Source: Brachyspira innocens ATCC 29796
GTDB taxonomy: Bacteria; Spirochaetota; Brachyspiria; Brachyspirales; Brachyspiraceae
Assembly (NCBI RefSeq): GCF_000384655.1
Contig: NZ_ARQI01000107.1
Location: 1 to 44,322 of the forward strand
Reading direction: 5' to 3'
Length of the DNA: 44,322 bases
Numbering within the stretch: position 1 is the stretch's first letter; each line of letters starts with the position of its first letter. The position numbers and the translations under genes were made by a program. Below, one piece after another: positions 26,994 through 44,322 of the stretch. Below the pieces are notes generated by a model. That model saw only the letters and a program-made list of their open reading frames with translations, did not search any database and was not told the origin of the DNA.

Positions 26994-29312
26994 TTAAAAT
27001 AAATTAGTTAAACGAAAATCCCATATCATAAATACAAGAATTGTATAAATAAATCTTTTTGATACTTCTTTGTTTTCATCGTTTTTAAACTCAATATTTA
27101 TTTTTACTTTGTCCTTATAATCAGCTTCTCCATAAATTTGAGCCTTTATTATAAAAGTATCTCTATTATCAAGACTTAAATTATATTCTTTGATTGTTCT
27201 GTATTCTGTATATGAAGACATCATTCCATATCTCATTCCAAATGCTTTAAAAGTACCATATGCTATTTCTATATTTTGTAGTTTGTTTATTTCATTTTCC
27301 AAATTATTTTTATCAAGTTTTATTATGCTTAATTGATTTATAGGCTGCGATAATTCATAATCTTCTAATTGCTTTTTCCATTTTGTAATGGTTTCTTCTT
27401 TCATTTCAATAGGGCTTGCTAAACTTATAAAGGTATTATCATCAATTTTTATTTCTTCATCATCTGAGTTGGTATAACTTCCATCTCCTGAATATCTGAA
27501 TGTTGTTATAAAATTATTATTTATATCGTATAAATTCCATATAAGTGATAAGTCAAATTTATTCATTATTGGATTATCTATAAAAACTTCTTTGAAAAAA
27601 TTATAATCATATTTATCACCTGCAATAAGTAATTTATTTAATATATACGAGAATTTTTTTATCATATTAGAAACTTCTTCTCTTATATGTTTTATTTCTT
27701 CTTTTTTATTATTATCTAAATTTCTTGGAATTGATTTTAATATTTTATTCATCTTTATATCAAATATACTTACAGAATAATCATTGTTTAATATTAATTT
27801 ATAATTTTCATCAATAATTTTTTCGCTGTTTTTGTCAAAGCCAATATTTGAATTATATTTCAATTCTAAATTGTAAAAAGGAATTTTTTTATCTTTAGCA
27901 ATTTCTATTAAAATATCTAAAGCATTATTTTTTGTTGCCATTTTTTTGGCATTATTATATATATTAAATAGTATTTTAATTGTGTATTCATTTTCTTTAT
28001 TTAAAGATAGTATCTTAAAAAATAATTTTGATTCTCCGTCTTTTTTGTATATTTCTTCTAATGATCCTCCATATAATCCGTAAATTAATTGTGCTGTTTC
28101 TTTATTTGTTTCTTTATAAATATTATAAGCAAAGTTCAAAAAACTTTCTTTATCAAGCAAATCTATAATAGAATCAATTTCAATAATACGATAAATATAT
28201 TTCTTTAATTCTAGATATTTTAAGTATATGTATTTTATTACTTTTATATTAACTTCTCTTGATTTATCCTTTATTAATACATTAGCTTTTTTTATAAAGT
28301 CAACTTTCTTTTCATCTTTTTTATTTAGATTATTTTCAGCATAATTTTCTGCTTCTTCTATACTTTTGAAAGTTACACATTCTGCTAAATCTTTTAATTC
28401 ATCATAATAAATATTTTCTAATCTTTTCTTGAAGGCTATTATTTTTTTATTTTTGCTTTCAGATGATATTTTATAAATTTCTTTTAAATTATCTCTTATA
28501 ATATCATTACCATAATAATAATTATCTAATACATGTAAATATAAAGTCCATTTCAAATTTTTAAAATTTTTAAAGTTATTACAGAATTGAAAAATATTCT
28601 CCATAGAATTAACTTGACTAATATCCCAATTTTCTAAAGAATCATACTGATTAAAATTATAAGTTCCGCCAAACATATAACTCATATTTTTTACTTTATT
28701 AACATTCCATTTATCAAGAGGCTGATTAAACTTTGAAGCAAGATAAAACATATATGATGTATCTTTCACATTTGATATATCCCAATCATTTAAAGGCTGA
28801 TTAAACTCTAAAGCTTGTACAAACATACAATACATATTTTCAACATTAGATACATTCCAACTATTAAGCGGCTGATTAAATTTGCTGCATCCTCTAAACA
28901 TATAACTCATATCTTTAACACTCTCAACATTCCAAGATGAAATATCCTGATTAAAGCTAAAAGCATCATTAAACATATAATTCATAATTTTAACTTTATG
29001 AACATTCCAATTATTAAGAGGCTGATTGAATTTAGCTGCATCTCTAAACATATAGCCCATATTTTCAACATTAGATACATTCCAATTATTTATATTATGA
29101 TTAAAATTTGATGCAAAAGAAAACATTGAATTCATGTTTACAACATTAGAAGTATTCCAAGTTTCTATTCCAGAAAAATCCTTTCTTTTACTTCCAGAAA
29201 ATAATCCGCTCATATCTGTAATAAGGCTTGTATCTATATCGCCTAAATAAATATTTTCATCTTCCGTTAGTTTATATAATTCTTTTAAAGTTTGCGGCTT
29301 GTATTTTGGCAT
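26994..29312 (-). CDS. BspA-type (DUF285) repeat protein fused to a DUF4132-like domain
   Basis: 772 residues. Residues 33-250 hold about eight 25-residue repeats of the pattern FNQPLNNWNVSNVENMxYMFxxA, the DUF285 or BspA leucine-rich type usually seen on surface proteins. There is no signal peptide (MPKYKPQTLKELYKLTED), so this copy is predicted cytoplasmic. Residues 280-560 are helical. From about 588 the sequence follows the DUF4132 pattern: IWNLYD, TTFRYSGDGSY, LASPIEM, then W645KKQLEDYELSQPINQL. DUF4132 occurs in MolR/YehI-like and WGR-associated proteins of unknown biochemical role. AGGA lies seven bases before the ATG. The last 20 residues do not fit the family and might reflect a late frame change. 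Confidence 0.75.
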   Translation of the reverse strand: MPKYKPQTLKELYKLTEDENIYLGDIDTSLITDMSGLFSGSKRKDFSGIETWNTSNVVNMNSMFSFASNFNHNINNWNVSNVENMGYMFRDAAKFNQPLNNWNVHKVKIMNYMFNDAFSFNQDISSWNVESVKDMSYMFRGCSKFNQPLNSWNVSNVENMYCMFVQALEFNQPLNDWDISNVKDTSYMFYLASKFNQPLDKWNVNKVKNMSYMFGGTYNFNQYDSLENWDISQVNSMENIFQFCNNFKNFKNLKWTLYLHVLDNYYYGNDIIRDNLKEIYKISSESKNKKIIAFKKRLENIYYDELKDLAECVTFKSIEEAENYAENNLNKKDEKKVDFIKKANVLIKDKSREVNIKVIKYIYLKYLELKKYIYRIIEIDSIIDLLDKESFLNFAYNIYKETNKETAQLIYGLYGGSLEEIYKKDGESKLFFKILSLNKENEYTIKILFNIYNNAKKMATKNNALDILIEIAKDKKIPFYNLELKYNSNIGFDKNSEKIIDENYKLILNNDYSVSIFDIKMNKILKSIPRNLDNNKKEEIKHIREEVSNMIKKFSYILNKLLIAGDKYDYNFFKEVFIDNPIMNKFDLSLIWNLYDINNNFITTFRYSGDGSYTNSDDEEIKIDDNTFISLASPIEMKEETITKWKKQLEDYELSQPINQLSIIKLDKNNLENEINKLQNIEIAYGTFKAFGMRYGMMSSYTEYRTIKEYNLSLDNRDTFIIKAQIYGEADYKDKVKINIEFKNDENKEVSKRFIYTILVFMIWDFRLTNLF

Positions 29313-44009: not shown

Positions 44010-44037
44010 TTGACAAATTCTAAAATTAATGTATATT
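44010..44037 (+). promoter_or_regulatory. Promoter upstream of the pentanucleotide tract
   Basis: TTGACA (44010-44015), 16-bp spacer, TATATT (44032-44037). The transcript would start near 44044 and carry the Shine-Dalgarno AGGA (44067-44070) and the ATG that leads into the repeat. Confidence 0.6.
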
Positions 44038-44077
44038 TTAATTAATTTTTATAAACAACTATAGATAGGATTTTTAT

Positions 44078-44164
44078 ATGTTCATCGCATCGCATCGCAT
44101 CGCATCGCATCGCATCGCATCGCATCGCATCGCATCGCATCGCATCGCATCACATTTAAATTAA
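44078..44164 (+). CDS. Upstream ORF through the CATCG tract
   Basis: ATG at 44078 is seven bases after AGGA. With 13 repeat units it encodes 28 residues (MF, then IASHR pentapeptides, then LN) and stops at 44162-44164. Five-base steps change the frame. With 12 or 15 units the same ATG would enter a frame that is open from 44149 to a stop at 44296-44298, overlapping the ATG of the next gene at 44282 out of frame. With 14 units the stop falls at TAA 44157-44159 (present numbering). Whether the uORF is translated is not known. Confidence 0.5.
   Translation: MFIASHRIASHRIASHRIASHRIASHLN
44083..44151. repeat. Pentanucleotide tandem repeat (CATCG)13
   Basis: Thirteen perfect CATCG units (44083-44147) plus CATC. 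The repeat is 60% G+C against an AT-rich background and starts three bases after an ATG. Tracts of this kind change length by slipped-strand mispairing and often control phase variation. Confidence 0.95.
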
Positions 44165-44281
44165 TTTTTTATATTATTGACTGTCATATCATACAATACC
44201 TAATTGTAAAATATTTCACTAATCTGGAAAATTATATCAAATATTTTTTTAGCAGTTTTATTAATTTAATAAGGAACAATA

Positions 44282-44322
44282 ATGCCTATATTCAATAAAT
44301 TATTGCATTCTAGTATAAGAAA
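44282..44322 (+). CDS. Start of an unidentified gene, cut by the window end
   Basis: ATG at 44282 with AAGGA seven bases upstream; the visible codons read MPIFNKLLHSSIR. The frame is open to the end of the window. Too little is seen for identification; the opening would not be out of place for a SecA-type N-terminus, but that is a guess. It lies about 235 bp downstream of the promoter at 44010, behind the repeat-containing uORF. Confidence 0.55.
   Translation, partial: MPIFNKLLHSSIR

Follow-up and report, generated by a model that had tools for sequence, protein, structure and literature searches.

A CATCG tract inside an upstream open reading frame: a candidate phase-variable leader of a GT61 glycosyltransferase gene and its relatives across Brachyspira

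The window, the whole 44,322-nucleotide stretch of Brachyspira innocens ATCC 29796 DNA under analysis, constitutes one contig end in a genome of 3.28 Mb; its last few hundred bases carry a promoter, a short upstream ORF (uORF) that enters a CATCG repeat, and the beginning of a GT61 glycosyltransferase gene that runs off the window end (Table 1). The remainder of the gene is carried by a second contig (C111), which shares 461 identical bases with the window's end; through this overlap the gene at 44282 is a complete and intact ORF with a GT61 domain (PF04577, E 1.8e-27). The promoter, AGGA, ATG and CATCG repeat named in the original prediction match the DNA base for base, and this anatomy can be read directly from the letters. 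The GT61 gene has a Shine-Dalgarno and an ATG separate from those of the uORF, and its frame contains a stop just 5' of the start (TAA GGA ACA ATA ATG), so the tract is not intragenic to it. The tract begins 46 nt past the -10 hexamer and therefore lies neither between nor beside the promoter elements. Elsewhere in the window, 75/150-bp tandem repeats occupy 28670-29160 inside a 772-aa ORF on the minus strand (26994-29312).

Table 1. Features of the GT61 leader, in window coordinates
Feature	Position	Strand	Details
Promoter TTGACA-N16-TATATT	44010-44037	+	TTGACA 44010-44015; TATATT 44032-44037
AGGA, ribosome-binding site of the uORF	44067-44070	+	Equal position in GT61 orthologue leaders L222 and L236
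uORF, present closed phase	44078-44164	+	ATG 44078-44080; 28 codons; stop TAA 44162-44164
(CATCG)13.8 tract	44083-44151	+	69 nt
Tail after the tract	44152-44298	+	Frame 0 open for 48 codons; stop 44296-44298
GT61 glycosyltransferase gene, start	44282-44322	+	AAGGA-N7-ATG; rest at L009:421-1503; 360 aa

The leader is assembled in its closed phase, in which the predicted uORF peptide consists of MF followed by IASHR repeats. The tract contains no stop in any of the three frames and no ATG, GTG or TTG on the coding strand; in the tail, the two frames other than the open one close 5 and 10 nt past the tract. With 12.8 or 15.8 units the frame of the uORF ATG is read through to the tail's final stop, overlapping the GT61 ATG out of frame, and with 11.8 or 14.8 units it stops at 44157-44159; recomputation confirmed the earlier claim that loss of one unit or gain of two opens the frame across the downstream start. 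The caution made at the same time, that the open frame may be chance, is right for the lone locus: against dinucleotide shuffles, openness as far as the start has p=0.24, or p=0.06 when closure of the other two frames is included. Comparison across the genus shows the pattern not to be chance.

This comparison drew on 37 CATCG tracts with their flanks, from 19 of 26 Brachyspira genomes, and the recurrence of the leader is directly apparent in them. The CATCGx3 pattern is present in 19/26 Brachyspira genomes, with the reversed control pattern in none, and a sample of 172 genomes from elsewhere in the phylum has CATCGx4 in just one. The unit is on the coding strand in every tract, and nearly all tracts are preceded by TTGAC[AT]-N16/17-TATNNT and, at a short distance, by an ORF start; this start lies 26-44 nt past the -10 with a Shine-Dalgarno, or just 6-9 nt past the -10, as in leaderless mRNA. 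Wherever a start lies near the tract (36 loci), a candidate start is found in exactly one frame. In the 35 leaders scored for promoters, the best match upstream averages 10.9, versus 9.3 for shuffled sequence and 9.1 downstream of the tract; the upstream score is the higher in 33, and the downstream side shows no promoter signal above that of shuffled sequence. The CATCG loci hold 4-35 units, as expected of the perfect short repeats of simple-sequence-repeat phase variation. CATCG arrays also occur in other taxa, noted as arrays only and not as leader architecture. Tracts of about four CAACG or CACAG units in the same leader design (L274, L276, L317) are perhaps young or decaying switches.

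The genes behind the leaders encode GT61 and GT11 proteins, a weak sugar-transferase match, an MBOAT acyltransferase and many lipoproteins, including a BspA-LRR one; further targets are a methyl-accepting chemotaxis protein, TM2 and DUF1232 proteins, creatininase and glycine reductase. The genome of the window holds two more tracts (CATCG at L246, CACCG at L316), each 5' of a lipoprotein gene and each in open phase.

The repeat unit itself is exchangeable. CAACG, CACCG or CAAAG replaces CATCG in the same leaders before orthologous GT61 and TM2 genes: (CAACG)n occupies the equivalent place in the GT61 homologues of two genomes (G001, G003), TM2-protein leaders carry CATCG, CACCG or CAAAG, and MBOAT leaders from ten species carry CACCG, CACAG or CATCG. 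A CAVNGx4 pattern matches 23/26 Brachyspira genomes, and the exchanged units are all pentamers that are stop-free in every frame. Period and frame logic are conserved and the unit sequence is not.

At a typical locus, one post-tract frame runs on to the downstream start without a stop, and both others shut within ~15 nt. For statistical purposes the leaders were grouped into 17 independent families, with expectations taken from dinucleotide shuffles; a frame was considered to reach the start if open to within 40 nt of it, and the other two to close early if they stop within 20 nt. The open frame reaches the start in 15 of the 17 families (expected 3.3, p ~3e-14), early closure is seen in 15 (expected 8.1, p 5e-4), and both occur together in 13 (expected 1.0, p 4e-17). 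Ordinary Brachyspira intergenic regions form a harsher control, in which 46% reach the start and 14% show both features, versus 88% and 76% of leaders; the contrast is weaker than that against shuffles, and among these regions are small genes that escaped recognition and starts that were wrongly placed. Tail length is 130, 147 and 195 nt in the three CATCG leaders that precede GT61 orthologues, and each open frame ends 11-14 nt inside the gene; two of them (L222 and L236, 147 and 195 nt) are open to 11 nt past the corresponding ATG despite differing in length. Two leaders (L218, L229) depart from the pattern. Taken over the genus, the frame pattern is not chance, although the window locus alone could be. 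The predicted design of a repeat-controlled uORF that reaches the next start in one phase thereby gains strong support, from the 37 CATCG tracts and from those with other units.

Selection on openness is directly visible in the distribution of stops, profiled over 55 leaders in 25 families against shuffled tails. In the open frame, stops arise at 0.2% per codon beyond 80 nt upstream of the downstream start, 0.4% from -80 to -40, 3.1% from -40 to -8 and 9.1% from -8 to +20 nt, versus 3.9, 5.4, 7.3 and 8.7% in the same bins of shuffled tails. On this profile, openness is required until ~40 nt remain to the start; near the Shine-Dalgarno the requirement is partly lifted, and beyond that there is none. 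In some leaders the open frame continues into that of the downstream gene, in most cases a lipoprotein gene. Sequestration of the downstream Shine-Dalgarno shows no excess (0.425 vs 0.422 in control genes); since it is no more hidden than in controls, coupling by unmasking is unsupported. A general intrinsic terminator or anti-Shine-Dalgarno hairpin was rejected as well, hairpins being confined to families H, L224, M and L242 and the start region not being sequestered. A hairpin AAUGCC..GGCAUU followed by GCAA is found in the tails of L217, L220, L224, L228, L231, L235, L240 and L242; the L242 version, AUACC..GGUAU, is a compensating change.

Length differences between close relatives are likewise seen directly. 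L243 and L244 have 16 and 4 units with flanks identical at 204 of 205 positions, L210 and L239 have 22.6 and 11.2 units with identical upstream sequence, and two copies within one genome have 16 and 13 units; tract copy number thus changes faster than the flanks, as seen between species-level genomes rather than within one clone. Among the assembled loci 6/36 are open and 30/36 closed. Some leaders are repeat-free or fixed in one phase: a repeat-free GT61 homologue (L256) has an uninterrupted uORF ending TAATAAATG; L365 retains about one repeat unit and is fixed closed, with the DUF1232-type gene behind it broken by a stop after 18 codons; and L360, L363 and L371 are fixed closed before genes that look intact. 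Leaders whose tract is lost or very short were also used to seek the sign of the switch, but they gave a mixed outcome and the approach was set aside.

It is considered somewhat more probable than not that the leader ORF is phase-variable and that its open phase is ON, through ribosome delivery or leader protection. Transcription would begin just 5' of a short ORF that enters the pentanucleotide tract within its first codons, and replication slippage would alter the tract by 5 nt and so shift the frame. One of the three phases would let ribosomes cross the leader (50-250 nt) and come within ~40 nt of the downstream start or pass it; the others would halt them directly behind the tract and leave the leader bare. 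Ribosomes arriving in the open phase may re-initiate at the next Shine-Dalgarno; alternatively, their passage may shield the leader against Rho-dependent termination or against decay (a rho gene is encoded in the genome of the window). Downstream expression would then fall in the closed phases. On this sign the observations divide: an ON state for the open phase is suggested by the stop profile, early closure, the open uORF of L256 and the broken gene of L365, whereas the intact-looking genes behind L360, L363 and L371 are unexpected if closed is off and point to an open phase that is OFF. The predominance of closed loci among those assembled, and the two leaders that depart from the pattern, also count against the favoured reading.

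That opposite sign follows if initiation is hindered by ribosomes that translate across the Shine-Dalgarno and ATG of the downstream gene, so that the open phase is OFF and the closed phase ON. Many open frames do overlap the downstream start, by 1-34 nt, the downstream genes own strong Shine-Dalgarnos, and several fixed-closed leaders have intact genes; however, the open frames of at least nine leader families end 13-41 nt short of the start and are unable to cover it, stops are tolerated from -40 on, and on this reading the other frames would gain nothing by closing early. Because stops are barred to about -40 nt and tolerated past the start, delivery or protection is favoured over such a block, which is considered unlikely. 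Overrun of the start as the point of the design, proposed with the original prediction, is accordingly poorly supported, given the families that end short, the in-frame fusions and the fading of stop selection from about -40.

It is very unlikely that the long-phase peptide is the actual product of the locus, a small hydrophobic protein subject to phase variation, to which the downstream gene is incidental. Tail peptides are recognisably conserved in families H and J, but tail dN/dS is mostly 0.2-1.6, tails of different families are unrelated, and, for tails of any length, the end of the open frame falls at or close to the next start; the L210 and L239 tails are separated by frame-shifting indels, yet both stay open. 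A conserved tail peptide was rejected as the product, the constraint being weak. Slightly less probable still is a transcriptional effect, in which tract length alters promoter spacing or factor binding and frame is irrelevant: (CAAGG)n tracts of up to 26 units without an open frame afterwards (L341, L346, L354) may act so, but a good promoter lies 5' of the tract in nearly every case and the frame pattern would be left unexplained. Hitch-hiking of repeats with leader cassettes, without effect on expression, would fit the placement of leader type H before several unrelated genes, but is equally improbable in view of selection on openness, early closure and the different units at the same position.

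The leader design resembles several known systems. Intragenic repeats mediate translational phase variation in, for example, Neisseria opa (CTCTT) and Haemophilus lic (CAAT); these share with Brachyspira a short tandem repeat near a 5' ORF start, dependence on frame, and surface-protein and glycosyltransferase targets, but the Brachyspira tract lies in a separate upstream ORF and most targets keep their own Shine-Dalgarno and start, usually in another frame. Leader-peptide attenuation and translational coupling (trp, erm) set downstream expression by the position of the ribosome in a leader ORF, as is proposed here; unlike in those leaders, the input in Brachyspira would be a heritable change of DNA length and not a metabolite or drug. 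The genus Brachyspira comprises gut spirochaetes, including animal and human gut pathogens. In the flagellar switch of C. difficile, Rho terminates transcription in a 5' leader and DNA inversion by RecV sets the phase (PMC7446863). It is alike in that phase varies after transcription start, via the mRNA leader (PMC7446863); Brachyspira differs in having a pentanucleotide tract in place of the inversion, and a part for Rho is only presumed.

At slightly better than even likelihood, these leaders form a genus-wide class of mobile or duplicated cassettes, in which a stop-free pentanucleotide tract within a uORF serves as a heritable three-position ribosome-delivery switch, with the unit exchanged between lineages and with period, position and frame logic conserved. 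The class is a variation on known repeat-driven phase variation, and its novelty is provisional: no earlier report of a repeat-switched leader in Brachyspira was found in the open-licence literature, and phase variation was reviewed in 2025 with no mention of Brachyspira, spirochaetes or leaders. If the reading is true, a separate upstream ORF joins the known sites at which repeat tracts act, and the set of switchable surface genes becomes predictable from any Brachyspira genome sequence; expression is predicted to track repeat count modulo 3 and tail frame, not the peptide or the repeat unit.

Other placements of such tracts were also seen. At L339, L340, L342, L347, L313, L326 and L329, long upstream ORFs carry (CAGAG)n at their 3' end, where it changes the C-terminus and the position of the stop. 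At L312, L319 and L324 the tract directly follows the ATG of a long ORF, the classic intragenic type; L312 is in frame with 14 CACAG units, and L324 is out of frame with 7.
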